Source of the DNA: Rhodobacter sp.
GTDB lineage: Bacteria; Pseudomonadota; Alphaproteobacteria; Rhodobacterales; Rhodobacteraceae
DNA: 61,429 nucleotides
Assembly: GCA_020250175.1 (NCBI GenBank)
Contig: JADCEN010000014.1
Span: forward strand, 1-61,429
Direction of reading: 5' to 3'
The notes under the pieces are model-generated. The model had not been told where the DNA came from. It searched no databases and was given only the letters and a program-made list of their open reading frames with translations. Shown here in pieces: positions 21,458 to 45,216 of this stretch; position 1 is the stretch's first letter; the number at the start of each line of letters is the position of its first letter. The position numbers were made by a program, and so were the translations under genes.

Positions 21458-21649
21458 CATGACCTTCATGCCAAAGACGCCGGTAAAGAACTCCAGCTTC
21501 CACCGGTTTTGCGCGACGTTATCCGAACTGCCAATTCGGTCAAGAAGAAGGAACTGCGCTGCAGTGCCTCGGGTTGTGCTGGCTGCGCCCTGCAAAAGGT
21601 TGCCCCTCAGGCCGGGATGGTCTTTCGGACGCGCGGGATCGCGAGAGCC

Positions 21650-24741: not shown

Positions 24742-24759
24742 TATATCCTTAAGGACAGA
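24742..24759. promoter_or_regulatory. Palindromic box A (14/18 match)
   Basis: TATATCCTTAAGGACAGA matches 14 of 18 positions of the perfect palindrome at 42045-42062. It lies 76 bp upstream of the LuxR-type gene at 24666 and covers the end of pilU. Inferred operator for a LuxR-type dimer. Confidence 0.5.
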
Positions 24760-25591
24760 TGAACGTTCCGGCGAATCCGGGGTCCTGGCAACTGAAGATG
24801 TAGCCGAGTGCAGACTGCAATGGCACCAGGGCCACGATGACCACAGCCAGAATTGAAAACATCAGGGATAACACCGCGATGGCGGGGCTGCTCGCATCAA
24901 GGCCCAGATGCTCCCGGCCCTCCTTCACGGCTTCCGGATTGCTGAAAACCGACCGGGCAAACTCACTTCTTTGCGCGATGAACGCCAGGCAGACGGCCGT
25001 GACATAGACAAGGCCGGTCTCGGGCGTGATCCCCAGAAGATAGATCGGCAGGCCAAGAGCCACCATATCAGGCGGGGTAAGAAATTCTCTTCGAATCTGC
25101 GTCTGCAGGCCCCAAAGCAGGACCAAAACCAGCCAGATGGCGAACCCGGCGGCCAGGCTGAGCACAACCAGCAACACGACGGGACGCTGACCGAGGAAGC
25201 CGGTCACACTCTGTGCACCGACGCCCTCTACCAGCCGCAGCACGCTGGCCGGCTCTGTGCCGTGCGTGAAGACAAAGGCCGAGGATGCCGTAAGGACCGT
25301 CAGCAGGACGCTGTCCGGAACCCAGGTCGTCTGACGGTCAATCCATCCTGCCATGGCAAGCTGCCCGACCAGGAAGGCCTGGATCATCTGCGGCCCAACT
25401 TCCTTCTCATCGGAGTCACCGAAATAGAGGGCAGCCGCCGATGCAAGGCACGACACCAAGACCAGGCTGAGAAACGGAAGGCGGTCAAGGGCGGCGCTGC
25501 CGCTTTCCAGGCCTTCGACACTGATGTGGGCCACCAGGGCGAAAACCGCGCAGGCGCAGAACAGCCAGACTGACGGCGGGATGCCGCTCAT
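24749..25591 (-). CDS. pilU: Prepilin peptidase-like membrane protein (type IVb pilus, PilU-like)
   Basis: 280 aa with about seven hydrophobic segments. It is too diverged for a certain family call, but two Asp residues sit as expected for aspartyl prepilin peptidases (A24): the first in GWIDRQTTWVPDSVLL near residue 103 and the second in LTPPDMVALGLPIYLLG near residue 190, replacing the usual GxGD with PPD. It would cleave the class III leaders of PilS and PilV. No N-terminal cysteine methylase domain is present, as in TFPP-type enzymes of type IVb systems. It overlaps pilR by four bases. Confidence 0.68.
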   Translation of the reverse strand: MSGIPPSVWLFCACAVFALVAHISVEGLESGSAALDRLPFLSLVLVSCLASAAALYFGDSDEKEVGPQMIQAFLVGQLAMAGWIDRQTTWVPDSVLLTVLTASSAFVFTHGTEPASVLRLVEGVGAQSVTGFLGQRPVVLLVVLSLAAGFAIWLVLVLLWGLQTQIRREFLTPPDMVALGLPIYLLGITPETGLVYVTAVCLAFIAQRSEFARSVFSNPEAVKEGREHLGLDASSPAIAVLSLMFSILAVVIVALVPLQSALGYIFSCQDPGFAGTFICP

Positions 25592-26661
25592 TGCTGGACG
25601 GCTTCGCTGATCTGGCCCTGAACTGAATACATGCCGGCGACGATGGAGATGATGACAAGAAACACAAGCACCAGAGACACGTTTCGTGCCGTTGCCATGC
25701 GCTGTTCGATCTTTTCCTGGTTCAGGTTAAGCCAGTCCTGTGCAAGCCGCGCCAGCTGACGCGACAGATCCTGGGTGCGCGCAAAGATCTTGACGGAAAG
25801 GTTCATGTTGTAGTCGGGCCAGGTCCGGCCGTTGCTGTGCAGCGCTTCACCAAAATCCTGTCCGTTCAGCATGCCGCGGCGGATGGCAAACAGCTTTTCC
25901 TTCACATAGGGCGTTGCCAGGGGCATAATTCTTTCCACCGCATTGATCGGGGCCATGCCGCCGCGCATCAGACTTGAAATGGCCAGAATGAAAGAGATGC
26001 CGGTATAGACGCGGTAAAGGGCATATATGGGAAGATAGTCAAAAAAACGCCGCACGCGCCCCGTCCAGCGGGGCAAGGTAATCAACACGATGGTCAGAAG
26101 CACGGCAATGACTATGACCGTGGGAACGGCGTAACTCGAAGCAAAATCGCCGAGGAACGCAAGAAACCTGGCCGCTCCCGTCCATTTTTCCGGTGGCAGC
26201 AATCTTCCGATATCGGGAACAATATAGAGCCCGAAATAGATCAGAAGGCCCATGACCATCAGAACAAGGAAAACGGGATAGGACAGACCCCCGACAATAG
26301 TGCCGACAATCTTGCGCTTCTGCTTCAGGGTACGGCAGTATTCCTCCAGCTGACCGGGGAAGTCATCCGAATTCTCTGTGGCCTCCAGGACCATCCGGTC
26401 ATCAGACGGCACCCACCTGCGGACCGCTTCCCCAAAGGATTTACCGTTGCGCATGTCACGCAGAATCGAAGACAGGACGATCGACATCGCGTCCTTTTGC
26501 TTCTTGCCCTCGTCGCTTGCGACAACCTGCAAAAGGTTGACGGCATCCGGCTTGGACATACCGGACCGCAGCAAGGCAGACAGCTCCTGGTAGAACTTCG
26601 TGCGGGCCTCAAAGCCGAACTGCGCCTTTGCGAACCAGCGTTCGAACCCATTGAATTCCAT
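25588..26661 (-). CDS. pilR: Type IVb pilus inner-membrane platform protein (T2SF family, PilR)
   Basis: 357 aa GspF/PilC-fold platform protein with two T2SF repeats. The first starts FYQELSALLRSGMSKPDAVN, with NGKSFGEAVRRWVPSDDRMV, and the second starts LAISSLMRGGMAPINAVERI with NGQDFGEALHSNG. Hydrophobic segments lie at about 125-150, 175-200 and 330-350. It docks the assembly ATPase PilQ, whose gene overlaps it by one base. Normal length for R64 PilR. Confidence 0.9.
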   Translation of the reverse strand: MEFNGFERWFAKAQFGFEARTKFYQELSALLRSGMSKPDAVNLLQVVASDEGKKQKDAMSIVLSSILRDMRNGKSFGEAVRRWVPSDDRMVLEATENSDDFPGQLEEYCRTLKQKRKIVGTIVGGLSYPVFLVLMVMGLLIYFGLYIVPDIGRLLPPEKWTGAARFLAFLGDFASSYAVPTVIVIAVLLTIVLITLPRWTGRVRRFFDYLPIYALYRVYTGISFILAISSLMRGGMAPINAVERIMPLATPYVKEKLFAIRRGMLNGQDFGEALHSNGRTWPDYNMNLSVKIFARTQDLSRQLARLAQDWLNLNQEKIEQRMATARNVSLVLVFLVIISIVAGMYSVQGQISEAVQQ

Positions 26662-28283
26662 CAGCGTTTCCTGCCTTGTTGCTGTCGGAAGGCGGCAATC
26701 TCTGACCGGAGCCGATCTGCGAGGTAAGAAAGATCGCGCTCATAGCTTTCAAGAAGATCAACTTCTTCCTGCACTTCGTTGATATCGACGATGCCTGCCC
26801 CCACCTTTACCAAGGCATGGTGCATGACCGGTGCCCCGCCCAGTCCACCGTCTTCCTTTGGCTTGATCCAATAGCGTTCCGCCTCGATGCGCGAGGAATC
26901 CATGTAGGTTTCCAGCAGACGCGCATCGGGACGGATGGTTTCGGCAACCACCGTTCGGCCGGCAAGGCCCATGAAGCACGATGAACACCCCGGCCCGCGA
27001 CAGAAGAGCTCGTTCGGGTTCTGCCCGGTCAGCTTGACCAGACGCAGGGCCAGCTCTTCCTCGACAAGGTTGGTCCTTACGGCCTCGGGCAGCGCAACCT
27101 TGCAGTTCGGGCAAAGCACACCGATAAGGCGCTGATAGATCAGGCCGCCGACAGTCCTGGGATCCTTCAGATCCTCGCGGTCTGCGCCCAGGTTGATAAG
27201 TCGGTTGAGGATGCCAAGCGCAGAGCCGGCGTGGACAGTTGACCACAGCGCGTGGCCGGTCTTTGCCGCCTCGACGGCCATCGATGTCAATTCTTCGGAC
27301 CGGATTTCGCCCAGGACGATCACGTTGGGATCAGACCGCAGGGCAGCCTTCATTGCCATCTTGAAGGCATCGTTCGCGTTTTGCCCGGCCGTGATCTGCG
27401 CCTGGATCGCGCCAAGAAGCTCCAGCTCTTTCGGGTCTTCGGCGGCGTAGATGCTGATCTCTCTCTTCTTGTCGAGATACATCGCGTTCAGGCAGCGTTG
27501 CAGCGTGGTCGTCTTGCCCGAAGACACCTTCCCGGCGAAGATATACATGCCATTGGTCTTGAGGCGCATATTCTTCAGGTCGAGCGATTGCTGCTGCGAA
27601 TAACCCAACGAGTCGACATCGGTATCAATGTTCTTGCCCACGTATTTCAGGCGCATGACCAGCGCGCCGCGCTGATCCGATGTCGGCGTGTATTGCAGCC
27701 GGAGCATTTCGACATTCTCGGGAAGCAGCCCCGATTTCTGGAACATGGCCCCTTGCTGGAACGTGGAGTCCGTGCCGCTGGCACCCTGCCCGGACGACAC
27801 CGCAAATGCTGCGCGGATCATTTCCTGGCCATCCGACGCAGGCTCGTTTCCCAACTCTCGCATACGGCCGTTGACGCGGACCTTCACTTCGGTATGCGAC
27901 TCGAGCACACGGATATGGACATCCGACGCGCCAAGCTGGCTTGCCTCGCTGACAATGCGCGCCAGCGACTTCTGACGGTCAAGGTCCAGGTTCTTCCAGT
28001 TGACCGAAACCTTCTTGGGTTCGACACCGGAATAGACCTGTTCAATGACCGTGGTCTTGAGTTCCCTGACCTCGACCAGACGGATTCCAAGGCGCCGGGC
28101 CTTGTCCATCACCACCTTTGCATCCGGCGCGTGACGCTGGCCCTCTGCGACCAGAACGATGCCGTTCTTGAAGACGGCAATGGTCTTTCGCTGGTCCGGT
28201 CCAAGTTCAATCGATGTGCCCGGACCGGAGGCGAGGCCCCAGTCAGACGCCAGATCCGTTATGTTTTCAGCGGTAATCTGCAC
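26661..28283 (-). CDS. pilQ: Type IVb pilus assembly ATPase (PilQ, T2SE family)
   Basis: 540-aa cytoplasmic hexameric ATPase powering pilus extension. Walker A FAGKVSSGKTTTLQ (about residues 250-263), Asp box AAEDPKELEL, Walker B NVIVLGEIRSEELTS, His box ALWSTVHAGSALGI, and a tetracysteine zinc site formed by LCPNCK and CRGPGCSSC. The N-terminal half holds the N2 domain (SDVHIRVLESHTEVKVRVNG). The start is GTG; no ATG lies between it and the upstream in-frame stop. Coupled to pilR. Confidence 0.93.
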   Translation of the reverse strand: MQITAENITDLASDWGLASGPGTSIELGPDQRKTIAVFKNGIVLVAEGQRHAPDAKVVMDKARRLGIRLVEVRELKTTVIEQVYSGVEPKKVSVNWKNLDLDRQKSLARIVSEASQLGASDVHIRVLESHTEVKVRVNGRMRELGNEPASDGQEMIRAAFAVSSGQGASGTDSTFQQGAMFQKSGLLPENVEMLRLQYTPTSDQRGALVMRLKYVGKNIDTDVDSLGYSQQQSLDLKNMRLKTNGMYIFAGKVSSGKTTTLQRCLNAMYLDKKREISIYAAEDPKELELLGAIQAQITAGQNANDAFKMAMKAALRSDPNVIVLGEIRSEELTSMAVEAAKTGHALWSTVHAGSALGILNRLINLGADREDLKDPRTVGGLIYQRLIGVLCPNCKVALPEAVRTNLVEEELALRLVKLTGQNPNELFCRGPGCSSCFMGLAGRTVVAETIRPDARLLETYMDSSRIEAERYWIKPKEDGGLGGAPVMHHALVKVGAGIVDINEVQEEVDLLESYERDLSYLADRLRSEIAAFRQQQGRKR

Positions 28284-28327
28284 CGGAACTGTTCTGCACC
28301 TTCCATTGCTGCGTCACCACACCCGCA

Positions 28328-29035
28328 TCATGGTGCCCTGAGAACCTGAAGAGTACCATCCGGCTTCTGAAGTTCAACCCTTTCGGGCGAAATGCTTATA
28401 ATTTCCGACCCGTCTTCAAGCTGATCACCGGTCACTACGGTCGTCGGACGGCCATTCGATATGATTACGGCAACAAGATCATCAGATTTTCCATAGATTT
28501 CACGGATCCATGTTCCAGTGCTCTGCCCCACGCCAGTATCAAGCTCCACGCCGGCTTCAAGGCTCGCCTTTTGGATCTGCGATTGCAGCTGCAGATAAGC
28601 AATCCTCTGCTGCAAACCTGCGGGAGTGTCGGCGAAGCTTCTGAATTCGCCGGGCGTCACCTCGATCTGGGCATCAGGCCCAAGCACAGCAAGAAGCTGC
28701 CCGACAAGTTGCGCCTGACGCAGCTGGCGCTCCATCAGCAGCAGGCCTTCGCTCAGCCTGCTTTGCTGGTCGATCAGCCCGCTTTCCTTCAGCAGTTCGA
28801 TCTGCGCATTCGTGATGGGATCGGTTGTCGGCTGCGCCGCCTGGGCCGGAGCGCCCGGCGGTTGCATCTGACCGGGCAGTGTTGCGTCCTGCGCCGACGC
28901 CGGGCCGGCAGAAGGCATCATGTAAGCCGCGAGCAGTGCAGCAGCGACGCCTGCGCCAAGGCCGTAAACCAAACGACGCCGACGCAGGAAAGACCTTCCA
29001 GACAGCAGCCTATTCTGAACGTTGTTCGATACCAT
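28328..29035 (-). CDS. pilP: Type IVb pilus assembly protein PilP
   Basis: 235 aa. A basic N terminus and one membrane anchor (YGLGAGVAAALLAAYMMPS) are followed by a periplasmic helical segment (LSEGLLLMERQLRQAQLVGQ) and a C-terminal PilP-type region (TWIREIYGKSDDLVAVIISN, GDQLEDGSEIISISPERVEL). PilP links the inner-membrane platform to the secretin in R64-like systems. The ATG at 29035 was chosen because it falls beside the pilO stop (TGACCATG); a longer frame begins at 29089. Confidence 0.8.
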   Translation of the reverse strand: MVSNNVQNRLLSGRSFLRRRRLVYGLGAGVAAALLAAYMMPSAGPASAQDATLPGQMQPPGAPAQAAQPTTDPITNAQIELLKESGLIDQQSRLSEGLLLMERQLRQAQLVGQLLAVLGPDAQIEVTPGEFRSFADTPAGLQQRIAYLQLQSQIQKASLEAGVELDTGVGQSTGTWIREIYGKSDDLVAVIISNGRPTTVVTGDQLEDGSEIISISPERVELQKPDGTLQVLRAP

Positions 29036-29037
29036 GG

Positions 29038-30579
29038 TCAACTCGTCTGGGTGATGGGCGGATGATAGATGAAAGCGGTCAGCTTCCATGTCTGTGTGGA
29101 CGGAGTGTAGGTCAGGGTGTTCGGTACAACCGCAGGGATATCGCCGATCAGAGAGATAAGCTCCGTTGGAAAGGCCGAGGATTCAAGCTCGATCGAATGA
29201 TAATTCCAAATCTTGCGATTCGGCAGGCCCGAGGCATCCGGCGCTGCCGGTTGCGCCACCTGGGCCGTCAGAGTCAGTGGCAACGCCAGGGTGTCGAACC
29301 GGTACACAAGCCGGGTGAACATCTCATTCGGGTCCAACGGCGCAACATCCTTGCCCCAGTCATTCGCCGGAATCGAGGCGCTGCGGCTGACCGAGCCAGA
29401 GGCCAGAGTCGCATCAAACTGCGGCACCGGCAGCCCCCGAAGATCAAGCGCGCTGTAGAGGTACTTTGCCCGTGTTCCATCCTGCCGCTTCCACGTGGCA
29501 CTGGCCGATACGGTGCCGCGCGAAACCGTGCACGTCACAGGATCCAAAAGCCAACCCGGCGGATTGACCTGCAACTCGTTGATCAGGGTTGCACAGGCGA
29601 TGGCCGAGTCAAGCAAGTTTGGCATCCCATCCCAAGGCGGAACCTGAAGTGCCTCAAGCCGCCTCAATTCCTCTTCTTGCAACCTTGCCAGTTCTGCACG
29701 TTCCGCTTCTTCCTGAATGTTCTGCCAATAGTTGTATCCGAAAGCCACCCCGCCAATGACAACGGCCGCCGCGATCGCCCGCGGGGCCCAAATCACGACG
29801 GGACTGTGGGATTTCAGCGCGGCACCCTTAGTGCCGGGCCTGATCAAATAGCCCAGGGCGATGTCATGTGCATCACTGATCTGCCAGTTCGGCGGGCAGA
29901 TCACCGTCTGCCAGCCGGGGGCGTCGTACAGATCCATAAAGCTTTCACGCGCTTCGATCTCGTTGCGCACCAGGCGGTCTTCATAGACCAGGCCATCGCG
30001 ATGGGCGACGATCCACCATGCCAGCTGCATCTGATCGCCGGCGACCGGCAGGACAAAGGCCGCAAGCCAGGTATCCCCAACATATTCCCGTGGAATGGCC
30101 GTGGCGGCGGCCATCATCCCATCCTTATGGGCATCCATCTTCGATGCGAAACCAACCTGCGCACCCGCGGCGTACAGGACGCTGAGGTCAAAGACCGTAT
30201 CGCCCACCGCTGCTGACTTCGCCTGGGCATTCAAAGATTGGCCGCTTGACCGCGGCTGCCACAGCAGGCCAATCGCCATCTTGCGACGGCCCCCTGCCAG
30301 AAGACTGTCCGTATCCAACTCGTACATGACAGGGGCGGGGCCGGTTGTGCCTGGCAGTTTTGGATCAACTGCCGGGTTCTTCTTTGCCACCTTGCGCCAG
30401 GTGAAGCTCTTGGCAGCCTTTCGCGGTGCGGCAGGGGCACCAGCGGTGTCTTCGACCGCCTTTGGCTTCGCTGCTGTTTTCTTGCGCGCCCAGAAAGACT
30501 GTTTCCCGGAACCCGCGGGCTTTGCAGCTTTCCGCTTCGGGGGCCTCTTGATCTTCAGCTTGTCAAGCAAACCAGACAT
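29038..30579 (-). CDS. pilO: Type IVb pilus protein PilO2-like
   Basis: 513 aa. A long basic Lys/Ala/Pro-rich N-terminal segment (about 80 residues) precedes a globular cytoplasmic part (AWWIVAHRDGLVYEDRLVRN, GWQTVICPPNWQISDAHDIA), a single membrane span near residues 265-285 (APRAIAAAVVIGGVAFGYNY), a coiled-coil-like EEAERAELARLQEEELRRLE and a periplasmic C-terminal domain. This layout and the gene position between secretin and PilP fit R64 PilO/BfpC-type proteins, which organise the ATPase and platform. The lysine-rich N terminus is unusually long. Confidence 0.82.
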   Translation of the reverse strand: MSGLLDKLKIKRPPKRKAAKPAGSGKQSFWARKKTAAKPKAVEDTAGAPAAPRKAAKSFTWRKVAKKNPAVDPKLPGTTGPAPVMYELDTDSLLAGGRRKMAIGLLWQPRSSGQSLNAQAKSAAVGDTVFDLSVLYAAGAQVGFASKMDAHKDGMMAAATAIPREYVGDTWLAAFVLPVAGDQMQLAWWIVAHRDGLVYEDRLVRNEIEARESFMDLYDAPGWQTVICPPNWQISDAHDIALGYLIRPGTKGAALKSHSPVVIWAPRAIAAAVVIGGVAFGYNYWQNIQEEAERAELARLQEEELRRLEALQVPPWDGMPNLLDSAIACATLINELQVNPPGWLLDPVTCTVSRGTVSASATWKRQDGTRAKYLYSALDLRGLPVPQFDATLASGSVSRSASIPANDWGKDVAPLDPNEMFTRLVYRFDTLALPLTLTAQVAQPAAPDASGLPNRKIWNYHSIELESSAFPTELISLIGDIPAVVPNTLTYTPSTQTWKLTAFIYHPPITQTS

Positions 30580-30592
30580 TTCGGCCCATTCC

Positions 30593-32137
30593 CTAGTTGG
30601 TCGTCAAGTTACGGGACAGGATTCGCGGCGTGATGAAGACGATGCTCGATGCACGCCGTATTTGCCCTTCGGCGACGCCACCCAGACCCAGGAAGTTGGG
30701 CGATCCCACCCCTTCCCTGTCGACCTCGGTCCGCTGACGCTCGAACCCGGACAGGACCAGCGTCTGCCCGTTCTTCAGAATGACCTGCTGTTCAAATTTC
30801 GAACGGGTCACCTCGGGCAACTGCACGGTCGAATCGGAAGATTCGAAGGTCTCAATGCCCACAAGGTCAGACAGGTCAAGAGAATAGCGCAGCAAGATCT
30901 CTCTTGTGTTGAGGACGCGGGGCAGCAACTGCATCTGGAAACCGGTCACAACTGTGTCGGTTGTTATCGACTGTGTCGGATTTCCGAAAGTATCCAGCGT
31001 GACTGAAACCTCTGACACATAGGCTTGTTCCTCGACAACCTCGACCGGGATCATCTGGAAGTTTGTCGTCGTTGCACCTGCACGGTTTTCAATCGTCACA
31101 TTCTGGCGCGTCGACAAGGCAGAGATCGCGACATCCAGATTGAAATCGCCGCTGATGATTCCCACGTTGACCGCTCCGACAGAACCGGCAACACCCCGTC
31201 CCCCTATCCACTCAATGTCGCCGTTGTTGTTCGCAAAGGAAAGGTTCTGCAGATCAACGCCGTAGCCTTCGGCATCCCGGGCCGTCACTGTCAGAACGTT
31301 GACATCAAAGGCAATCTGCTGGCCCATGGTCTGGTTCATCGTTGCGACGTAATCGCGAATCCGTTCCTGGTCAGACAGCAGCGCCGTGACTGTCAGAATG
31401 CCGGTGCCCTGGCCCAATTCAAATTCTGCATTCGGCCCTGCGACGTTCTGCAACCCCCGATCCAACTCGTCCCATATATCAAGGTCGGCGGTCGACGATG
31501 TCTGGACCGCACTGAAACCCATGGCCGACGTCACCGGCAATGCTGAAAGCTGATATTGCCGGGTGACATAGTCGCGGAACACCACCCGCCCGTTCTTGTA
31601 TGTCCATTCGACATCAAAGGCAGACCCCACCTTGTCAAGCACAGAAGACAGCGATCCGCGCAAGCTGGGGCGGATGGAAAGCGACCCGGCGCGCGAAGTA
31701 CCGGCAGCCGAACCGCCAGCCGAACCTGCATCAGCCCCTGCAGCCGCCCCGGCCTGCGCCGTGGTCCCGTTCGGCCCCAACTCCACGCTGTGCTGGATCT
31801 TCGTGATCTCGGACAGGCGGGCGGCAATATCCGTCAGCTTCAAAGGGTTGCGAGAGATCAGAACCACCGAGGTTGATGTCTCGGCGCTGGCAGGCAGCCG
31901 GTCGGAAGATTTCAGGTTCACAATCTCGGGGGCGACAAAGTTGGCACCCGAGGTTTGGGCACCGCTGGCGCGCACTGGCGGGCGCGAATAGAACTGGTTG
32001 TTGAGCTGCGCCGTGCGCGCACTGGCGGAAGCGACGGTATCCTGAGACCGCTCCAGGGTGCCGTCGCAGCCGATCAGGGCAAAGGCCATCAAAACCGGCG
32101 CAGCGGCACGCAGAAAGGCACGGAAAGGACGCATCAT
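30593..32137 (-). CDS. pilN: Type IVb pilus lipoprotein secretin (PilN/BfpB family)
   Basis: 514 aa outer-membrane pore. The lipobox is ALIGC with Cys24 as the lipidation site, typical of the PilN/TcpC/BfpB secretins. An N-terminal STN-like domain follows, then a Gly/Ala-rich linker (AGAAAGADAGSAGGSAAG), then the secretin core, ending with VQLPEVTRSKFEQQVILKNG, QTLVLSGFERQ and SIVFITPRIL, which is the family hallmark. ATGATG start overlaps the stop of the upstream TcpQ-like gene. Confidence 0.94.
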   Translation of the reverse strand: MMRPFRAFLRAAAPVLMAFALIGCDGTLERSQDTVASASARTAQLNNQFYSRPPVRASGAQTSGANFVAPEIVNLKSSDRLPASAETSTSVVLISRNPLKLTDIAARLSEITKIQHSVELGPNGTTAQAGAAAGADAGSAGGSAAGTSRAGSLSIRPSLRGSLSSVLDKVGSAFDVEWTYKNGRVVFRDYVTRQYQLSALPVTSAMGFSAVQTSSTADLDIWDELDRGLQNVAGPNAEFELGQGTGILTVTALLSDQERIRDYVATMNQTMGQQIAFDVNVLTVTARDAEGYGVDLQNLSFANNNGDIEWIGGRGVAGSVGAVNVGIISGDFNLDVAISALSTRQNVTIENRAGATTTNFQMIPVEVVEEQAYVSEVSVTLDTFGNPTQSITTDTVVTGFQMQLLPRVLNTREILLRYSLDLSDLVGIETFESSDSTVQLPEVTRSKFEQQVILKNGQTLVLSGFERQRTEVDREGVGSPNFLGLGGVAEGQIRRASSIVFITPRILSRNLTTN

Positions 32138-32580
32138 CTTGTCTCCACCAAAGTCGTTTCGACGTGAACCACGCGATTTCCCCGGTACAGCGTGACCAGC
32201 ACCTCGGGGTTGGACCGGTGAATTGTATCTACCAGGCTGGCCACAGCCGTTTCAAAATCACCCGCGAACTGGGCCGAGGCGCGCAGACGGTAGTTGACGG
32301 GGCTGTCCCAGACCAAGGTCCATCCGGCAGCACGTGACCAGCCGTCCAGCGTGGCCTTCAGGTCGCTGCCGGACATGGCGGCCCAACCGCGCGATGTGCG
32401 CACGGGGGGGGCACTGCTGCCTTCGCCTGCCGGCCCGACGGCATCGGCAAAGGCGGGAAAAGAAGGAACGTTACACATCGACAACAACAGCGTGAAGGCC
32501 AGACACTTGGCCGGATTGATAAACCGAAACTGGCTTAAACTCTTGGGATATTCCCGAAAAAAAGTTTGGGAAGTCAACAT
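32134..32580 (-). CDS. TcpQ/PilL-like periplasmic pilus protein
   Basis: 148 aa from the ATG at 32580. A signal peptide covers KCLAFTLLLSMCNVPSFPAF with an AFA-type cleavage near residue 45. The mature part is a compact TcpQ-like domain: DLKATLDGWSRAAGWTLVWD, YRLRASAQFAGDFETAVASL and a final VTLYRGNRVVHVE. Such proteins help the secretin fold (TcpQ, BfpG, R64 PilL C terminus). Its frame extends upstream to TTG 32655, and the true start is unsure. Stop overlaps pilN. Confidence 0.8.
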   Translation of the reverse strand: MLTSQTFFREYPKSLSQFRFINPAKCLAFTLLLSMCNVPSFPAFADAVGPAGEGSSAPPVRTSRGWAAMSGSDLKATLDGWSRAAGWTLVWDSPVNYRLRASAQFAGDFETAVASLVDTIHRSNPEVLVTLYRGNRVVHVETTLVETR

Positions 32581-32754
32581 ACTGTATGATCCTGCTCGGA
32601 ACCTGACTGCTTCTTTTTCTTCGGCCATCAACACGTCCATCGCGTCTCTGGTCAAGCCGAATTCCCGGTCTGGTCCGTAATTCTATACCCCTGTGGTTAC
32701 TTTTGTGCTTCGTCCGCTGCGCCACCGGGCAGCTGTGCACCTGCGGGCTGCGAA

Positions 32755-32786
32755 GGAAAAAGGCCCCGCCCGACATGGGCGGGGCC
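32755..32786 (-). terminator. Rho-independent terminator after the prepilin gene
   Basis: Stem GGCCCCGCCC/GGGCGGGGCC with loop GACAT (32762-32786) is followed on the minus strand by a T tract (32757-32761). It separates pilS (ending 32803) from the eight downstream genes, so most transcripts should end after the major pilin with partial read-through. Confidence 0.85.
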
Positions 32787-32802
32787 GGTATCATGCCAGG
32801 CC

Positions 32803-33414
32803 TCAGCGGTTGAAGGTGAACTGAACGTCAGCAATACCGCCGGTGAAAGTGCACAGCGTGGAAACGGCAGACGGCGAGAGCGCATTACTAGCGGGCGTGG
32901 TCGCTGTCGGGAAAGTTGTTGTGGACGGTGCCTTGAACGAAATCGACCGAATACCCGAACCTACCCGACCAGAGCCGGACGAATCGGTGGAAGTCAGGCG
33001 AACACAGGCAGCCGTAGGAAGACTAGGATAGGTCACGGTAAAGCCAGAGTGCGGCGGTGTGTCAGTAGCGCCCGTTGATCCAGCAGCGATGGTGCCACCC
33101 CACTCGTTGACCAGGTTGGTGCCACTGATGAGGGACGTCGGCACGGCACCTGCGTTGATCAGAGAGGCTGCAGTGAACCCGTCAAAGTTGTTCGCCTGCT
33201 GATACAGCCCGCGGGTTTCCGAGGCGATGGCCGAGATGTTGCGCACCGCGCTGTTGGTGCGCTGGGCCAGCGAGGCTTGCTGGAAGAACACCAGACCGCC
33301 GACGATCAGCGCCAGGGCGATGGAGATGTAAAGAACCGCTTCGATCAGCGTCACGCCGCGCTTGCGGGCGGCACCAAGCCGGGCGGCCCGTGCCAATGTT
33401 GAGAGAGATGTCAT
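32803..33414 (-). CDS. pilS: Type IVb major prepilin (PilS)
   Basis: 203 aa. The leader is long and basic and cleaved at RKRG/VTLIEAVLYISIAL, with Glu at +5 and a 20-residue hydrophobic alpha helix, but Val rather than Met or Phe at +1. The globular part carries two cysteines late in the chain (AACVRLTS and STLCTFTGG), spaced like the disulfide region of type IVb pilins. The ATG at 33414 has AAGGA 8 bases upstream, better than the longer in-frame start at 33435. It is first in the minus-strand pilus operon and is followed by a terminator. Confidence 0.92.
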   Translation of the reverse strand: MTSLSTLARAARLGAARKRGVTLIEAVLYISIALALIVGGLVFFQQASLAQRTNSAVRNISAIASETRGLYQQANNFDGFTAASLINAGAVPTSLISGTNLVNEWGGTIAAGSTGATDTPPHSGFTVTYPSLPTAACVRLTSTDSSGSGRVGSGIRSISFKAPSTTTFPTATTPASNALSPSAVSTLCTFTGGIADVQFTFNR

Positions 33415-34180
33415 GAGTGTCGTCCTTGTTATCATGATAGCCGCACCCGAGCAAACAACCGGATATGTTCAGTGTTCATCTTTGGAACATCGAGGGCAAG
33501 TTGTTCGTCAAGCCGTACTTTTTTCTACAGCGAACTGCGGCCTGCTTCACTCTGTTCTTATGGGTATACCTATACTTTAAGCTAGGTCTATCGGTGCCGG
33601 TCCCGGGCACGGCATCATGCTTTCGTTCCCGTAAACCGGAGATCGGCCGAGGCAAAACGCTGCACTGCCTGGGGGTTTCTTCGTTTACTATCAATTATTT
33701 ATGCCGCCGCCCTTTGCCCATCCGCTGCGTTGCCGCAGCCAGGGCAGTATCCTGCGCGAACGTCACCTGACTTTGTTAATAAAATCCTAAGGAAGAGCAT
33801 CAGTTCAAATGTTCGACATTGAATGCCCGCCCGAGGCAGGATATCCTCTCATGTCATCGGGTTGCTGGTGGCGGAGTGCCGAAGGACCTCGAACGACCCG
33901 AAATTGATGGAATAAACCCACATAAGATCAATAGCTTGGCAGGTAACTTCCGCCATTATCGCGCAGTCTCGGAGGTGCCCCAAATGGCCGATGGACAATG
34001 GGCGCGGAAACGCCTTAACTAAATCTCGGCGCTGTGCGTTTTCGTCGGCTCTGCAAGATGTGAACGCATGAAGCGCCGGGATATGTTAGGTGCCGTCTGG
34101 CAGATTCGTGTCAACACTGCGCCTGACTTGGGCGGTACAGATGACAGGGCGAACGGCATCTGGACAGAAGGTGTGCAGGG
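33415..34180. other. Long AT-richer divergent control region between pilS and pilV-like genes
   Basis: The region is noticeably less GC-rich than its surroundings and holds palindromic box D at 33569-33586. A possible small frame at 33809-33907 (32 codons, starting MFDIECPPEAG, with AAGGA 10 bases upstream) could be a leader peptide but has no supporting homology. The binding site of the pilV-like gene (AAGG and CAGGG) is at about 34167-34180. Confidence 0.6.
33569..33586. promoter_or_regulatory. Palindromic box D (14/18 match)
   Basis: CCTATACTTTAAGCTAGG is itself an inverted repeat (CCTA...TAGG) and matches the box at 42045-42062 in 14 of 18 positions. It lies about 155 bp upstream of the prepilin start. 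Inferred operator. Confidence 0.5.
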
Positions 34181-35752
34181 ATGACTGAAAGCAGAACCGG
34201 CGATCTGGCGGATGCCGCAATGGGCAGACGGCGCAGGGCCCTGCGCCGCAAGCGGGGCACCACCCTGATCGAAATGGTGCTTTACTTGACGCTCGTCTCT
34301 GTCGTCATGACATTTTCCCTGGGCCTTCTGCGCGAAGAACAGGTGCGCCGGGAAAGGACCGCTCTTGCAGCAGAGCTGCGGCAGGTGACTTCGGCCAGCC
34401 AGGCTTATGTCGCCGCCAACTACGAAAGCCTTCTCAACACCTTGCTCACCGGGACTCCGGCCAATGATCCGATGATTGCAGTCCGTCCGATCAGCGATGT
34501 CGTCAGCGCGGGTTTTCTGCCCCAGGGGTTCGCAGGCACGTCAAACCCAAAGAGTTTCGTGAACACGCTGAATTACTCGCTTGTCATGCGCGCAGTGCGA
34601 CGCAATGACCCCGGAGACACGGACTTGCCCATCGAAGAGCGGTTTCCTGACACCATTGACAAGAACAACACGATCGCGGTTCCGGGCCCTCCGGAGGCGT
34701 TCATACCGGCACTGATTGATCGCGATCCGGGCAATGACGAGATCGACCTTGAGGTGCTTTTGGTCACAACAAGCGCTGATCCCTGCGTCATCGTCCCCGC
34801 TGTCCAGGGTCCGCGCATCGCTTCACAGGCAGAAACCATGGCGGCCGGCTATGTCACCGGACCGGGAGCCGGCAAGCCCACCACCTGCCCTGCGTCCGTC
34901 ACGAACGACCCTGCCTGGGACGGCACCTTCACAGCGACCGGCCCCTTCGGTGCCTGGACCTTGCCGCTGGAGCCGTACAAAGACCTGAAGATTGGTACTC
35001 AGCCCGCAGTGCAGGCAGGACGGCTTGCCTCGCTCATCGCGCTGCAAAAACGTCCGGCCCTGTCTGAAGGGGCGGCGATTGCAGGGGCGGGCGACAGTGC
35101 CTTCCGCTGCGCGGACGTCACACCCAACACGCCCCAGCATCTTGCGTGCCGCCAAAGTGAATTGATGTATTCCGGGATCACGTTCCAGGCCTGGGACAGC
35201 GATGGCAACGGGTCACCGGACAAGCGGCCCGGTCTGGAGAATGTCCACAGCATCAGCCTTGCCGCGCCGGCCGCTGCGGCATCCCCTGCACAGATACGCA
35301 ACGTTCTTTCCCTGGACTGCCTGCCGTCCCCGGTTACAACCCCACCTACTCCACCTGAGGATACAACGTGGAACACCAACGAACTGAACGTGAACTGTCC
35401 CAAGACGAAGCTGCAGGGCCTTGTCGTTTCAGACGACCTGATCCTGAAGGGAGAGAACATTGAAGCAAAATTTGCCAAAAGCGCTGTCTATACCTTTGCC
35501 GGCGGTATTCCATTGACGGTACCCAAACCGGTATGCCCCACCGGGTACTCGGAAAAAATGGCTGCTTCAGTGATGTCGTACGAGGCGACCGACGTGCGCA
35601 AGCAGGAGGTTGTTTCCACACCTACGGGCGCTTCGTGGAAAGTTGACCTGACGCTGACGGTGGGAAACCCTCCATTCAATCTTACCGGTGCCACGAATAC
35701 CAGCAGCAATCCAAATGATGCAAAGCTTCTTGTGCAGACTTGGTGCAGTTAA
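34181..35752 (+). CDS. Large PilV-like minor pilin
   Basis: 523 aa. The class III leader reads RKRGTTLIEMVLYLTLVSVV, with cleavage after Gly26, Glu at +5 and an uninterrupted hydrophobic helix, so it is a substrate of the same peptidase as PilS. The C-terminal 450 residues form a big, Ser/Thr/Pro-rich globular head with several Cys (DPCVIVP, TTCPASV, FRCADV, HLACRQS, VNCPKTK, KPVCPTGYS, TWCS). The size and position fit R64 PilV, the tip adhesin. I see no shufflon segments or recombinase gene. Confidence 0.82.
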   Translation: MTESRTGDLADAAMGRRRRALRRKRGTTLIEMVLYLTLVSVVMTFSLGLLREEQVRRERTALAAELRQVTSASQAYVAANYESLLNTLLTGTPANDPMIAVRPISDVVSAGFLPQGFAGTSNPKSFVNTLNYSLVMRAVRRNDPGDTDLPIEERFPDTIDKNNTIAVPGPPEAFIPALIDRDPGNDEIDLEVLLVTTSADPCVIVPAVQGPRIASQAETMAAGYVTGPGAGKPTTCPASVTNDPAWDGTFTATGPFGAWTLPLEPYKDLKIGTQPAVQAGRLASLIALQKRPALSEGAAIAGAGDSAFRCADVTPNTPQHLACRQSELMYSGITFQAWDSDGNGSPDKRPGLENVHSISLAAPAAAASPAQIRNVLSLDCLPSPVTTPPTPPEDTTWNTNELNVNCPKTKLQGLVVSDDLILKGENIEAKFAKSAVYTFAGGIPLTVPKPVCPTGYSEKMAASVMSYEATDVRKQEVVSTPTGASWKVDLTLTVGNPPFNLTGATNTSSNPNDAKLLVQTWCS

Positions 35753-35783
35753 GGTGTAATCGCCTGTTTGAGGAGCACGACGA

Positions 35784-36269
35784 ATGAACCTGCTGCTGCC
35801 CCCCCTTATGGCATCCGTTCTGCTGGCGGGCTATGTTGCCACGGTCAGTTTTGACCGGACCGATGGAGACGAACGGCGCTACGCCGCCGACAGCATGGTG
35901 CGGTATCACACCCTTGCCGTCGAGCAGTACAGGGCAACACCGGCCGCGGTCCTGAACCCGAACATGGCCCCTTTTGCAAAGGTCCTGGACTGGCAAAGCC
36001 GGGAAGTCGAAGACAGTGATGAGCAGAAATGGATCATCACCTATATCCCAAGCACCCAACCTACGTTGCCATCAACGATCAGCAGCATCGCGATGTCGTC
36101 CATTCCCCAGGAGCTGGCGCGCAGGGATTTCAGCGGCGGCACCTACGGGATATGGGACGATTCTACGCCAACACCAACCCTGGCGTCGACCATTGGCACC
36201 ATATCCATTACTACGGTGCTGACCCCGGCTGTTCTGGACGGAACGCTGGTGATTGCAACCCGGCTCTGA
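35784..36269 (+). CDS. PilM-like membrane-anchored pilus protein
   Basis: 161 aa. One N-terminal hydrophobic segment (LLLPPLMASVLLAGYVATVS) is followed by a small periplasmic domain with RYHTLAVEQYRATPAAVLNP and WIITYIPSTQ. The shape, size and location fit PilM of R64-type clusters, but sequence identity is too low to be sure. GAGGAG lies 9 bases before the ATG. Its 3' end overlaps a convergent muramidase-like gene by 59 bp. Confidence 0.65.
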   Translation: MNLLLPPLMASVLLAGYVATVSFDRTDGDERRYAADSMVRYHTLAVEQYRATPAAVLNPNMAPFAKVLDWQSREVEDSDEQKWIITYIPSTQPTLPSTISSIAMSSIPQELARRDFSGGTYGIWDDSTPTPTLASTIGTISITTVLTPAVLDGTLVIATRL

Positions 36270-37152
36270 TGACCGGCGGTGCAGCCTGGCCTTCGGGGCC
36301 GGGCAGTAATGCGACCGGTATCGCAGCCATCCCGAAAATCTCTGCAAACCGGCTCTCGTAGTATTGCCGTGAAATGGTCGCGGAATTGCCCGCGAACCCT
36401 TCATAAGCCGACAGGCCGGACCCCAGCGGCAGCCCGGCCCAGACAAAAGCCAGACTGTCCAGAAAATCAACCGGGGCCATCTGCCCCGACAGAAATTCGG
36501 GCAGGCCCGCATCGTTGATCAGCCGCACAGCCAGCCTGTCCTGCAGCGCCGGTGAAAAGACGGCGGTCATCGGCACGCTCTCGACCGCAACAAGGTAGCT
36601 CAGCGTCATCGGGATGATCTGGTAGCGGCCAATGGCGTGGTTTTGCCGGGGTGTCGCGTCGATCCAATCGACGATCTCCTGAATTGTCATTTCTGTCGGG
36701 GCCTTGTCAGGCAGCACCCAGGCGCGATGATGGATCGCATCATAACCGGCGGGCCCGGCCTCGGCCGAAGCGATCAGGGACAGCAGAAGATCAAGCTGCG
36801 GACCCGACTGCGCGGGGCCGGGCGGGACAAGCCGGATCACGGCCTTTTGCGCAGACGGGGCGGCCGCGTTGAGGCGCTTTTCCAGCAGCGGTGACTTGAC
36901 ACCGCGCAGGACCAGAAGGGAGATGATCTGATCGCGCCGCTCCTCGGCGGAAAGCGACACACGCAAATTGTCGGGCCGGACCTGTTCGGCAAGGCCAGGC
37001 GTCAGGGCCAGAAGACAGGCCACACCTCCGGCAAAACTTGCCGCCACGGATTGCCGAAATGTCCTTGCCCATCGCCAAGGGGTCAAACACGGCCTCCACG
37101 CAATCCGTCCCTGCAATCTTTCGTTCCCCCCGCCGAAGCCCGCTTGGCACAC
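36211..37152 (-). CDS. Lysozyme/muramidase-like exported protein of the pilus locus
   Basis: 313 aa. A hydrophobic signal segment lies at about residues 35-55 (SVAASFAGGVACLLALTPG). The core reads LLLSLIASAEAGPAGYDAIH ... MTIQEIVDWIDA ... GRYQIIPMTLSYLV, the Glu-containing lysozyme-like pattern of phage-type muramidases and transglycosylases (SAEAG and GRYQI). It is probably the peptidoglycan hydrolase (functional counterpart of PilT in R64) that opens the wall for pilus assembly. The start is GTG and uncertain. Confidence 0.72.
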   Translation of the reverse strand: MCQAGFGGGNERLQGRIAWRPCLTPWRWARTFRQSVAASFAGGVACLLALTPGLAEQVRPDNLRVSLSAEERRDQIISLLVLRGVKSPLLEKRLNAAAPSAQKAVIRLVPPGPAQSGPQLDLLLSLIASAEAGPAGYDAIHHRAWVLPDKAPTEMTIQEIVDWIDATPRQNHAIGRYQIIPMTLSYLVAVESVPMTAVFSPALQDRLAVRLINDAGLPEFLSGQMAPVDFLDSLAFVWAGLPLGSGLSAYEGFAGNSATISRQYYESRFAEIFGMAAIPVALLPGPEGQAAPPVIRAGLQSPAFRPEQPGSAP

Positions 37153-37477
37153 AGGTTTTCACCCCTTGTCTTTCCTTGTGAGATTAATTCACTTCCAAGC
37201 CCAAGTCCAAGAGCTTTGTCTCTTGCAGGCATGCAGACTCTGGGCTTGATGCATTTGACTGTAAATGAGACTTGACGGCACCAGCCCATATGAAACAGTC
37301 AGGTACCGGGATCCGGGCTGACCCTGATGATCGGCTGTCGCGACAGGCTGGCAACGTTGCGTGACCCTTCCCTTCGCCGTGAGATTAGTTTAGGATCACT
37401 CCAGATCAAATCCCTTTTGGCAGGATCGTCGTGTCTTCCCTTGTGACAGTTCAGATGCTGGAACCGCAGACATAACC
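37153..37477. other. Divergent intergenic region upstream of the SPOR gene
   Basis: Two similar stretches, GTGAGATTAATTCACTT near 37180 and GTGAGATTAGTTTAGGATC near 37379, may be regulatory. No gene is seen. Confidence 0.4.
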
Positions 37478-38839
37478 ATGGTGGAAAAAATCCTTTCTCC
37501 AGCTTCCGGCCCGTCCCGGCCCGATCACCGGACATCATCCCGGAAAAGCGGGCATGGCGGCAGGGCAGGCAAGAAAATGTTCTTCGGTCGCATTGCCTTT
37601 CGCATGGTCCTTGTCGCTGGCGCTCTGGCATTGGCCTTGCCCTATGTTCTTGCCTATACCCCGCCCGTTCAGTCTTACACCGGTGGCGTGGCATCGGCGG
37701 GAATGGCACCAGAGATGAACTATCTTCTTGATGCGGAAGCGGCCGCGGCGGGCCTGCCGGGTACCCAAGACACGCTGGATCAAGACACGCTGAATGTGGT
37801 GCAAAGCAGCTTTGATCCGGTGCTTGTGGAACGGCTTGAAGGAAACGCGTCCGCGATGGATCTTGGCATGGTCGGCGGATCGGCGGATGCCCCTGTGGTG
37901 ACCCCGGAAATGCTGCGGATTCTGGCGCAGATGACGCCGGAACAGATCGATGCCCTGACCTTCCTGCTGCTGTCACAGCAGGACCCGCAGGCTGCGGCCG
38001 CCTCGGCCGCTGACCAGGCGGATGCGCTTGCCGTTGATGCGCCCTGGGTCGGCGATTGGACGGCTGGGGACCTGAACCCTGAACAGGCTGATCCGGTCAC
38101 CCTGGAAGAACCTGTACAGAATGAACTGCTGGCGGGATGGTATATCTTCGAGGCTTCTGCGACCGAGGCCGTGATCCGCAATGTCGACGACCCGCTCAGC
38201 GCCGTTCTTGTATCGCCCGGAACGGTTCTGGGAAATCTGGGTGTTGTGTCGGAAATCCGGCTGGAGGGGGGGGCTGCAAAGGTTATCCTTTCTGGCGGTG
38301 ATGTCATCCTCAGTGATGCCGGTGCCATCATCACGGGAGAGGCGCCGAAACCATCCGAACCACGCCGCGTCACTCCGGTCGAGATTGCCATGGCCATGGC
38401 AGAGTCTGACAAGGTTGCCATGGCAGAGTCCGGCACAGTGGCCATGGCAGCGTCCGTTACCGAGGAACCGCCCGCAACTGATCTTGCCGCCCTGGACAAG
38501 GCAGAGCCTGACGTGCCGGTTGCAGGATTGGCCGCAAGCCCGACCGCTCAGCCATCGCAGGCGGCTTCATCCAAATCCGCCTCTGACGAACCCTTGAAGC
38601 CGGGGGATGAAGGTGACGGTCGTTACGTGCAGGTTGCAACTTTCAAATCGGTCGAAAATGCACAGATCGCCAAGAAAATGCTGGAGTCGGGCGGCATGAC
38701 TGGCGAGCTGCGCAAGACCGTCATGAAGGGTGTATCCTATCACCAGGTTCTGGCAGGCCCCTTCGATCCGGCAGACACAAAGGCGGCCTTGACCCGCGTG
38801 ACAGGGCTTGGCTTCAGAGACGCGTTCATCATCCGATAG
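37478..38839 (+). CDS. SPOR-domain, membrane-anchored pilus-locus protein
   Basis: 453 aa. One membrane anchor near residues 43-60 (MVLVAGALALALPYVLAY). A central region (about 200-290) contains ILSGGDVILSDAG and NELLAGWYIFEASATEAVIR, resembling the PilP/GspC-type homology region. A low-complexity Ala/Met/Ser linker (AMAMAESDKVAMAESGTVAM) leads to a C-terminal SPOR domain (RYVQVATFKSVENAQIAKKM to the end) that should bind denuded peptidoglycan. It precedes the second ATPase by 53 bp and probably shares its transcript. Confidence 0.83.
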   Translation: MVEKILSPASGPSRPDHRTSSRKSGHGGRAGKKMFFGRIAFRMVLVAGALALALPYVLAYTPPVQSYTGGVASAGMAPEMNYLLDAEAAAAGLPGTQDTLDQDTLNVVQSSFDPVLVERLEGNASAMDLGMVGGSADAPVVTPEMLRILAQMTPEQIDALTFLLLSQQDPQAAAASAADQADALAVDAPWVGDWTAGDLNPEQADPVTLEEPVQNELLAGWYIFEASATEAVIRNVDDPLSAVLVSPGTVLGNLGVVSEIRLEGGAAKVILSGGDVILSDAGAIITGEAPKPSEPRRVTPVEIAMAMAESDKVAMAESGTVAMAASVTEEPPATDLAALDKAEPDVPVAGLAASPTAQPSQAASSKSASDEPLKPGDEGDGRYVQVATFKSVENAQIAKKMLESGGMTGELRKTVMKGVSYHQVLAGPFDPADTKAALTRVTGLGFRDAFIIR

Positions 38840-38892
38840 GCCGATCGGGCGCAGCATTCATCACGCTTGCAGGCGGATACGGGAACAGACCC

Positions 38893-39921
38893 TTGGATAC
38901 ACTCGTCGAAAACAAGCTTTCTTCTGTCATGTTCTCGGACATCTTCATGTCTTCTGAAGAAGCTGATCCGGTTCTGGTGCTGAACCTTTCCGGAGAAGGA
39001 ATCCGACCGACAAAGTCGCGCGGACCATCGGCTCTTCCGGAAATCTACGTGTCAGACGCCCGGAGGCTGTTCAGAGCAACCGAACAGAAATGGAGCGCGG
39101 AACGCTTCGCACCGGAATTCAACCTTGTCTATGACAACCTTTCCTACCGCTGTGCGCTGATTGCGGCACCAGAGGCCGCAGTTCAGATTCCCCGGGAATC
39201 CACACTGGCGCAAAAACGCCGGAACTGGTGTCTTCGTCGCGTTGATGCAGGGCGCATATCCCTGGACCAATTGGGCTATCCGGCTTGGGCGCGCGAGGAG
39301 CTTCGCCGGATCGGCGCATCATCTGGACTTCTTCTGGTCTCGGGTTCCTTCGGGTCGGGTAAATCCACGACGTCGGCTGCCTGTTTCAAGGACTGGATCA
39401 CCCTGCACGGCGGTGTTGGTGTGACCTTGGAAGACCCGCCTGAAAAGGCATTGGAAGGCTACTATGAAAACGGCCAAATCTACCAGATCTCTGTCCGCGA
39501 TTCGGCTTTCGCCGAATCAATCAAGGCATCGCGGCGTTGGGCCTATCGATATCTCTATCTTGGCGAGGTTCGCGACCAGGGATCAGCGGCCGAGTTGCTG
39601 CAGATTGCACTGGGCGGGCCCATGGTGATCACCACGATTCATGCCTCTGCTCCTGTAGAGGCCCTGATGGCGCTGGCAAAGTTCGCCACAGGTGCCGGTG
39701 ATCCCCGGTCCGTCAATGACAGGATTGCGGCAAGCATCATCGGTGTCATCTGGCAAAGCCTGCGCGGCGGAATGGTGGATGTTCAATACCTGTCGTTCCG
39801 CGGGCGAAATGCCGATTCCATGCGCACGAAGATCAGCGAAGGCCGTTTCAGACTGCTGAAGGAAGATCTTGCCTATCAGGCGAACCTGCGCAGCCTTGGC
39901 CGCATCGAGGAAAGCTTCTGA
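38893..39921 (+). CDS. PilT/BfpF-like second T2SE ATPase
   Basis: 342-aa ATPase. Walker A VSGSFGSGKSTTSAA (about residues 149-163), Asp box VTLEDPPEKALEG, Walker B YLYLGEVRDQGSAAELL, His box MVITTIHASAPVEAL. It is shorter than the assembly ATPase PilQ and has no zinc tetracysteine site, as expected for retraction-type ATPases. The start TTG has GGGA upstream; an ATG at 38929 is the alternative. It is 53 bp after the SPOR gene. Confidence 0.85.
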   Translation: MDTLVENKLSSVMFSDIFMSSEEADPVLVLNLSGEGIRPTKSRGPSALPEIYVSDARRLFRATEQKWSAERFAPEFNLVYDNLSYRCALIAAPEAAVQIPRESTLAQKRRNWCLRRVDAGRISLDQLGYPAWAREELRRIGASSGLLLVSGSFGSGKSTTSAACFKDWITLHGGVGVTLEDPPEKALEGYYENGQIYQISVRDSAFAESIKASRRWAYRYLYLGEVRDQGSAAELLQIALGGPMVITTIHASAPVEALMALAKFATGAGDPRSVNDRIAASIIGVIWQSLRGGMVDVQYLSFRGRNADSMRTKISEGRFRLLKEDLAYQANLRSLGRIEESF

Positions 39922-41666: not shown

Positions 41667-41696
41667 GGCGATATCCCTTACACCCGAGCTAAACAT

Positions 41697-44731: not shown

Positions 44732-45216
44732 TCCAAGCACCACCTGCTGTTTCAAACGCCACCCGGCCCTTCGGCTGGGGGCCACCTCGCCCAGGCTGAA
44801 CAGCCCACACTGCCGACCTCGCTCAGCCTGTGTACCGCCTTCAGACGATTCGTCAAAAAACTCTGCCGCAAAGCTGCAAGTTCCATGATCACCATGTGCA
44901 TCATATGCAGGTTCTGCCTAACCTTTCACTTTGGCGTGTCTTCACGCCGATGGCTGCCGCCCCGCCGCCAGTAGAGCAGCAGACAACGTGCATCGCTGGC
45001 GGCGCAGCCCTGGCTGACCGGTGCGGTTGCCGCCAGAGAATGGGCCGTCATGCTGCCAGGATTGCCCGCCCGTGTTGATGACGATGATCCCGGCCGAATT
45101 CTTGCTGACGCCTCTGCCGGGACGATTCAGCAGGAAACGGCGTTCCGGTTCGCAAGTGGAAGACTGCGACGCTTCCATGCAGGACGGTGATCTGGCCGCG
45201 CAATCGAAACCCGTCT
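44732..45216. other. Intergenic region between autotransporter and helicase genes
   Basis: No gene is seen. The half-site CCTAACCTT at 44917-44925 is the only notable motif. Confidence 0.45.

Follow-up and report, generated by a model that had tools for sequence, protein, structure and literature searches.

Hair-like type IVb pili are familiar chiefly from conjugative plasmids and gut pathogens. Those of the R64 type are best known as conjugation tools, with a lytic enzyme, PilT, among the R64 parts, and in the bundle-forming pilus (BFP) the ATPases BfpD and BfpF are paired and accompanied by accessory parts that differ from those described below. The present analysis concerns a locus at positions 24749-39921 of a 61,429-base stretch of Rhodobacter sp. 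DNA, here called the window, which is the entire contig C6 of a 3.89-Mb draft genome (G000; 86 contigs, 99.96% complete). It is a complete R64/BFP-type type IVb pilus locus, and Pfam matches, conservation in relatives and sequence motifs bear out every part and strand that an earlier sequence-only reading had named; as a machine it belongs to a known kind, of which it forms a new variant. The reading preferred here, at a probability of roughly 0.6, is that of a type IVb attachment pilus that works alone and can be extended and probably retracted, directed at surfaces, biofilm or partner cells and not at conjugation. Deserving of a second look are a putative scaffold with an HR-like and a SPOR domain, a candidate prepilin peptidase with a TPPD motif, and the retention of a type IVb pilus without transfer genes.

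The R64 type and its relatives (pil2 of PAPI-1, Tfp7 of Burkholderia, pil of S. Typhi) likewise possess TcpQ/PilL, PilN, PilO2, PilP, PilQ, PilR, PilS and PilV, and share with the window locus a lytic enzyme and a PilM-like protein. According to the available excerpt of PMC3984277, chromosomal R64-type loci are already published, PAPI-1 lists a pilT2 gene, and PilT2, encoded in the chromosomal Tfp7 locus of Burkholderia, is an ATPase without the first 110 residues of EpsE. The window locus differs from the R64 type in that no transfer genes and no clear shufflon repeats were found, its operons are divergent, its lytic enzyme is of the GH104 type, and a SPOR protein and a divergent peptidase-like protein are added. 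It resembles the BFP in a bundlin-like pilin and two ATPases, but has PilO2 where the BFP has BfpC, two proteins placed in one family by the same excerpt (PMC3984277). Among the Bosea, Methylorubrum and Rhizobium megaplasmid type IVb loci, both of Bosea are annotated with TcpQ, PilN, PilO2, two ATPases and a T2SF protein, and one also with PilV, and those of Methylorubrum and Rhizobium gave profile matches to both ATPases, TcpQ, PilP and PilV of the window; none of these stretches, however, matched the window-type SPOR core or peptidase, and tblastn against the plasmid collection returned no match to either (for the peptidase at E 1).

The SPOR protein, the peptidase-like protein and their distribution

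Structure prediction gives the SPOR protein a single membrane helix, an HR-like domain and a peptidoglycan-binding SPOR domain, the last present in all four sequences of the subtype defined below. In the model this is the layout of the type II secretion system (T2SS) scaffold GspB/OutB, to which the accessible part of PMC9239104 ascribes a single transmembrane helix, an HR domain and a wall-binding C-terminal part. The likeness lies in these three predicted elements; the differences are that the SPOR protein belongs to a type IVb pilus, that its wall-binding part is a SPOR domain, and that neither PilP nor K-12 GspB/GspC matched it significantly in profile comparisons. The best fold match of the predicted HR-like domain was DotF, which is of the GspC/PilP type; most of the 50 listed matches were SPOR or other ferredoxin-like domains, and no GspC, PilP or GspB entry stood among the best 50 listed by either fold search. 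By analogy the SPOR protein probably anchors the pore of the pilus in the cell wall. A literature search turned up no GspB-like SPOR scaffold for any type IV pilus, and, if the analogy is true, the protein would give type IVb pili a GspB-like wall anchor and thereby a direct answer to how the pore is held.

In an alignment of the four peptidase-like proteins, 41 of 334 columns are invariant, including W83-x-D85-xx-T-x-WVPD93 and T172-P-P-D175. The motif around D85, DxxTxxxPD, resembles IDFRTQLLPD of K-12 GspO, and the second aspartate, D175, invariant in all four, stands within TPPD at the place expected for GxGD, the family motif of prepilin peptidases; a GxGD protein is seen elsewhere in G024, one of the four genomes. 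Pfam Peptidase_A24 matched only one of the four proteins (E 0.49) and not that of the window, for which reason the latter is filed as peptidase-like only. PF01478 found nothing in the window's genome at E 0.001, with 12 of 14 control genomes positive, and the peptidase-like protein is the only prepilin-peptidase candidate found there. The family was also not found in G252, G207 (83% complete), G014 and G059, and was found in G024 and G209, so that its presence and absence cross the subtype boundary and the lack of a canonical peptidase does not set the subtype apart. Should the assignment be true, TPPD in this protein would probe how much departure from GxGD membrane aspartyl peptidases tolerate. 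The predicted model was too poor for a fold search to be of use, and in the locus-profile search the G207 sequence starts a few codons early and has one stop set to X. G014 and G059 carry type IVb loci, with no PF01478 found and no match to the window peptidase in the stretches fetched.

A search with PilO2 detected the gene in six of 248 family genomes (G000, G014, G024, G059, G207, G209) and two of seven genus genomes (G000, G252), PF06864 in two of 390 order genomes (a different sample, for which the Pfam model may be less sensitive), and a PilO profile in 39 of 385 class genomes, counting that of the window (30/315 of good quality), some of them on contigs of 1.6-4.2 Mb. By these counts type IVb loci are patchy in the family and not rare in the class, and the rarity of chromosomal loci implied by the sequence-only reading did not hold, in agreement with the published chromosomal loci (PMC3984277, as excerpted). 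Many of the PilO-bearing class genomes are small (0.9-2.3 Mb), which suggests that type IVb pili are frequent in reduced, possibly host-associated lineages.

The stretches around PilO were fetched for six other family genomes and searched with the proteins of the window. The SPOR protein, second ATPase, peptidase-like protein and PilV lie inside the pilus block of G252, G024 and G207, and the subtype so delimited comprises four of the seven PilO-bearing family genomes examined, from three genera, with the order of parts rearranged between loci. G014, G059 and G209 possess PilN, PilO2, PilP, the assembly ATPase and T2SF, and no complete SPOR protein, second ATPase or peptidase-like match was found in the stretches fetched from them. 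The DotI/IcmL model PF11393 splits the seven genomes alike, being found in G014, G059 and G209 (in the first two on a different contig from the pilus) and not in G000, G252, G024 and G207; this result rests on PF11393, another DotI profile with one of its four rows misread (33 aa) being weak. In 38 other class neighbourhoods, several of which are truncated at a contig end (8 to 20 kb), a T4b-type second ATPase was found in seven, and the SPOR core and the peptidase-like protein in none. The SPOR-bearing form was found in the four subtype genomes only. Of the added parts that the earlier reading had tied to the pilus, the SPOR gene is thus conserved with it in 4/4 subtype loci, and the autotransporter was found linked to it within the genus only.

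From these parts we tentatively propose, with the odds leaning somewhat against it, a distinct non-conjugative type IVb subtype in this family, in which the secretin would be moored by a GspB-like SPOR scaffold and the prepilins would be cut by a TPPD aspartyl peptidase. Two findings tell against a clean split and slightly lower the confidence in the attachment reading. G014 has the core of the SPOR protein without the SPOR domain just before tcpQ (L017:8986-9957; E 1.2e-6, aligned), so the core is not confined to the subtype, and this G014 sequence is itself included in the SPOR-core profile used on the class neighbourhoods. Moreover, G207 is only 83% complete, which weakens the split between subtype and DotI genomes.

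Proposed function of the pilus and competing explanations

Functional roles are drawn throughout from the parts and their relatives. The divergent, putative membrane aspartyl peptidase (24749-25591) would process the PilS and PilV prepilins, whereupon the T2SF platform and the assembly ATPase would polymerise PilS into a fibre that exits by way of the PilN secretin, with PilO2, PilP and TcpQ aligning this secretin to the inner membrane. PilV may sit at the fibre tip as a possibly Ca-dependent adhesin, the GH104 muramidase would open the wall for the machine, and the PilT2-type second ATPase would retract the fibre. The SPOR protein would act in the manner of GspB/OutB, binding the secretin or secretin partners through its HR-like domain and peptidoglycan through its SPOR domain, and thus tether the pore. 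The whole block was probably acquired horizontally.

A retracting pilus could also serve DNA uptake, PilT2 importing DNA while the SPOR protein braces the pore, and a putative retraction ATPase in a genome with no other type IV filament ATPase found would suit such competence. The block shows no recognisable competence gene, ComEC and ComEA not being searched, and a PilV adhesin and type IVb pilins are typical of adhesion; we regard this explanation as unlikely.

Quite unlikely, too, is a mating-pair pilus like the thin pili of R64, left by a decayed or dispersed conjugative element whose transfer genes are lost or elsewhere, although several observations are in its favour. In the plasmid collection type IVb loci are mostly on conjugative plasmids (2463 of the 2896 records matching the secretin are typed conjugative), some relatives adjoin relaxase or type IV secretion system genes, the lower G+C and the patchiness fit a mobile origin, and in the ATPase tree described below the three DotI genomes provide the nearest type IVb relatives within the family. 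However, neither DotI/IcmL (PF11393, found in three of the seven genomes tested) nor a PF03432 relaxase nor a VirB11-type ATPase was found in the window's genome, the relaxase model being a weak test because it was silent in all seven genomes, and decay would not predict that the parts of the subtype stay together in three genera with no DotI found. The sequence-only reading had placed the locus away from transfer genes, with which these negatives agree, and had offered mating as one function; the latter is disfavoured, since the DotI-bearing family genomes are the other three, whose fetched stretches hold no complete SPOR protein, second ATPase or peptidase-like gene. A type IVb pilus conserved as a set in genomes in which transfer genes were not detected would mean the same machine working alone.

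That the filament is a pseudopilus of a secretion-like system, with the neighbouring S8 protease or PilV as substrate, is highly improbable: the S8 gene does travel with the pilus inside the genus, but its product looks self-transporting and has no match in the other two subtype loci (G024, G207), and the main pilin is of the bundlin/PilS type. Least probable of all is that the SPOR protein, second ATPase and peptidase-like protein are chance neighbours, for although SPOR and T2SSE domains occur in many settings, all three lie inside the pilus block in 4/4 loci from three genera with rearranged order.

Composition and setting of the locus

The attachment pilus preferred here is encoded on both strands, the minus strand carrying the prepilin, TcpQ, secretin, PilO2, PilP-like protein, assembly ATPase, T2SF and peptidase-like protein, and the plus strand the PilV-like, PilM-like and SPOR proteins and the second ATPase (Table 1; Pfam calls were judged against each model's curated cut-off). 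Since pilS and pilV diverge from a 745-base gap, two divergent transcription units and single genes are apparent; a promoter scan of this gap gave one site against 0.6 expected.

Table 1. Features of the pilus locus and its neighbours, with window positions and the matches on which each assignment rests.
Feature	Position	Strand	Evidence
LuxR/NarL-type regulator 1	23989..24666	-	GerE 63.9 bits; 84% in G252, 37% in G024 near SPOR gene
Divergent prepilin-peptidase-like membrane protein (PilU position)	24749..25591	-	no Pfam/NCBIfam/PHROG match above cut-off
T2SF inner-membrane platform (PilR-like)	25588..26661	-	PF00482 (T2SSF) 74.4 bits, cut-off 25.2
Assembly ATPase (PilQ-like)	26661..28283	-	PF00437 (T2SSE) 195.3 bits, cut-off 24.9; T4b first-ATPase group 100/100
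PilP-like alignment-complex protein	28328..29089	-	T2SSC E 0.01, below cut-off
PilO2	29038..30579	-	PF06864 (PAP_PilO) 78.7 bits, cut-off 26.7
PilN-type lipoprotein secretin	30593..32137	-	PF00263 (Secretin) 39.0 bits, cut-off 27.5
TcpQ/PilL-like protein	32134..32655	-	PF10671 (TcpQ) 73.5 bits, cut-off 27
PilS-type major prepilin, 27-aa leader	32803..33435	-	PF08805 (PilS) 61.2 bits, cut-off 22
PilV-like minor pilin/adhesin, Ca-binding-like loop	34181..35752	+	N_methyl motif E 0.003, below cut-off
PilM-like small membrane protein	35784..36269	+	no Pfam family match; adjoins PilV in G252, G024 and, by position, G207
GH104-type muramidase	36211..37152	-	PHROG 90 endolysin E 1.1e-13; no Pfam match above cut-off
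SPOR protein: predicted transmembrane helix, HR-like domain, SPOR domain	37478..38839	+	Pfam SPOR 25.8 bits, cut-off 21; model and fold matches
Second ATPase (PilT2-type, putative retraction motor)	38893..39921	+	PF00437 65.7 bits, cut-off 24.9
LuxR/NarL-type regulator 2	39950..40627	-	GerE 53.7 bits; 82% in G252
Receiver-like protein without helix-turn-helix, genus-level companion	41151..41696	-	Response_reg E 0.1 only; 77% in G252
S8 serine-protease autotransporter-like protein, genus-level companion, not core	42146..44785	-	PF00082 159.5 bits

A PilS/bundlin prepilin, a secretin with TcpQ, PilO2 and a T4b assembly ATPase with T2SF place the locus in the R64/BFP group of type IVb pili. The prepilin also matches Bundlin (PF05307; 49.0 bits, cut-off 22.3, Pfam E 1e-12) and, among PDB sequences, bundlin 1zwt (E 4.1e-7) and PilS 1q5f (E 2.4e-4); the leaders of PilS and PilV are long (27 and 26 residues), basic and end in KRG, and the prepilin helix has E at +5. 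The best NCBIfam match of the secretin is the PilN family TIGR02520 (206 bits, under the cut-off of 287.65), and the PilP-like protein is conserved adjoining PilO in all six other family loci. In G024 a second PilS-like prepilin (L013:2145-2885; 28.6% to the window PilS, E 7e-13) stands beside the SPOR/luxR end of the locus.

A genome-wide search with T2SSE (PF00437) found two ATPases only, both inside the pilus locus, and consequently no Tad, T2SS, T4a or VirB11-type ATPase elsewhere. A Tad/Flp, T2SS or T4a identity is rejected because both ATPases group as T4b, and the TadA-family model TIGR03819 scores 33.7 bits against a cut-off of 373, Flp pilins not being searched for. The contig also carries ribosomal-protein genes at 56.7-60.7 kb (rplC/D/B and rpsC, named from a reading of the open reading frames), which indicate a chromosomal place; the view of the locus as chromosomal and not Tad/Flp stands. 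G+C is 0.59-0.61 in the pilus block, 0.53 in the pilS-pilV gap, 0.67 in the right flank and 0.615-0.656 in the left. Window positions 23288-44892 are matched in the congener G252 by collinear pieces of 79-88% DNA identity, with gaps and spread over two contigs, which excludes a chance arrangement; the flanks of this block are rearranged there and the order inside it is kept.

In a tree of 30 sequences, 11 T4b second ATPases, that of the window among them, form one group (100/100), as do the 14 T4b first ATPases (100/100). The second-ATPase group is separate from the assembly ATPases, from the third ATPases of Azonexus and Polaromonas, which we take to be TraJ/DotB-like, and from K-12 YggR, HofB and GspE. 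The second ATPase of M. extorquens was represented by its last 360 residues. A profile of the window-type second ATPase gave 103-159 bits with the second ATPases of the Methylorubrum, Bosea, Azonexus, Polaromonas, Stutzerimonas and Rhizobium loci fetched and at most 66 bits with the other ATPases in those loci, and among 394 family genomes it found the same four subtype genomes at E 1e-25. By tblastn the protein matched 211 plasmid records; in 79 the match spanned 80% or more of the query, and in the 25 listed 93-97%. Its standing as an unusual part or a novelty was therefore given up, since it is a regular part of many type IVb loci. The accessible text of PMC6668835 describes a PilB/PilT duplication as ancestral to the clade including type IVb pili. 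The second ATPase would pull the pilus back. A contig scan gave at least 80 matches; those listed other than DNSZ01000278.1 have 27-39% identity and resemble other T2SSE ATPases, and the scan speaks neither for nor against rarity. Of 34 pattern matches taken as candidate viral copies, none was confirmed.

The PilV-like protein, with a prepilin motif and a long ectodomain, is conserved in G252, G024 and G207, and bears a loop D-x-D-G-x-G-x-x-D at residue 339. All six PilV-like genes of the four subtype loci encode one or more such loops (in one G207 copy at another position only) against 2-12% of shuffles (five PilV sequences tested), which makes a Ca-binding adhesin possible. In the available excerpts, PilV of R64 and PAPI-1 is reported to bind lipopolysaccharide (PMC5297154), and the type IV pilus adhesins of plasmid TP114 are treated (PMC9045228). 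A repeat search of 33400-37500 yielded short inverted pairs only and no repeated shufflon-type site; a recombinase gene was not searched for. G207 has three different tandem PilV-like genes (L014:16656-18761; across the L014/L015 joint; L015:1094-3196), like an adhesin repertoire, two of which were used in the PilV profile. Neither PilV nor PilM matched anything above cut-off in Pfam or PHROG, and the PilM-like protein has a weak match (E 3.7e-4) between the second ATPase and PilV of R. leguminosarum.

The muramidase gene is convergent on the PilM-like gene, with a 59-base overlap at their ends (36211-36269), and counts as a variant of a standard pilus part. It is present in G252 and G024, the G207 contig stopping just past the PilM-like gene. 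Its product had no match among PDB sequences, and matched 36 plasmid records, with 46-53% identity over half its length to plasmid proteins, by genus name mostly from Rhodobacterales and other Alphaproteobacteria; two among the 15 matches listed carry a GH104 annotation.

Neighbouring genes and flanks

As companions of the pilus, the LuxR-type regulators and the autotransporter may control expression or trim surface proteins; regulator 1 (23989..24666) presumably has a pseudo-receiver domain, as judged by motif. The S8 protein occurs in two of seven genus genomes, exactly the two with the pilus, and gave no match in the 40 kb of G024 or the 24 kb of G207 examined. By reading, its C-terminus is autotransporter-like, and NCBIfam EprS matches with 176.7 bits, under the cut-off. 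In G252 a contig break falls at the long poly-glycine tract of the S8 gene, whose pieces lie on C118 and C122.

To the left of the pilus block, transposase-like open reading frames (DDE, IS3-type by reading) lie at 12726-13649 and 20357-22597, the latter, an insertion remnant, running into unrelated coding sequence. A 1706-aa protein at 45217-50337 joins a RecQ-type to a UvrD/PcrA-type helicase; copies of it occur in G249 and G252 (91% in both) and in G253 (65%), and since the contexts of these copies differ it may be mobile, an empty-site test with this neighbour being uninformative for the same reason. At 60-600 and 5180-5950 the window is very G+C-rich, giving mutually similar translations of overlapping open reading frames.

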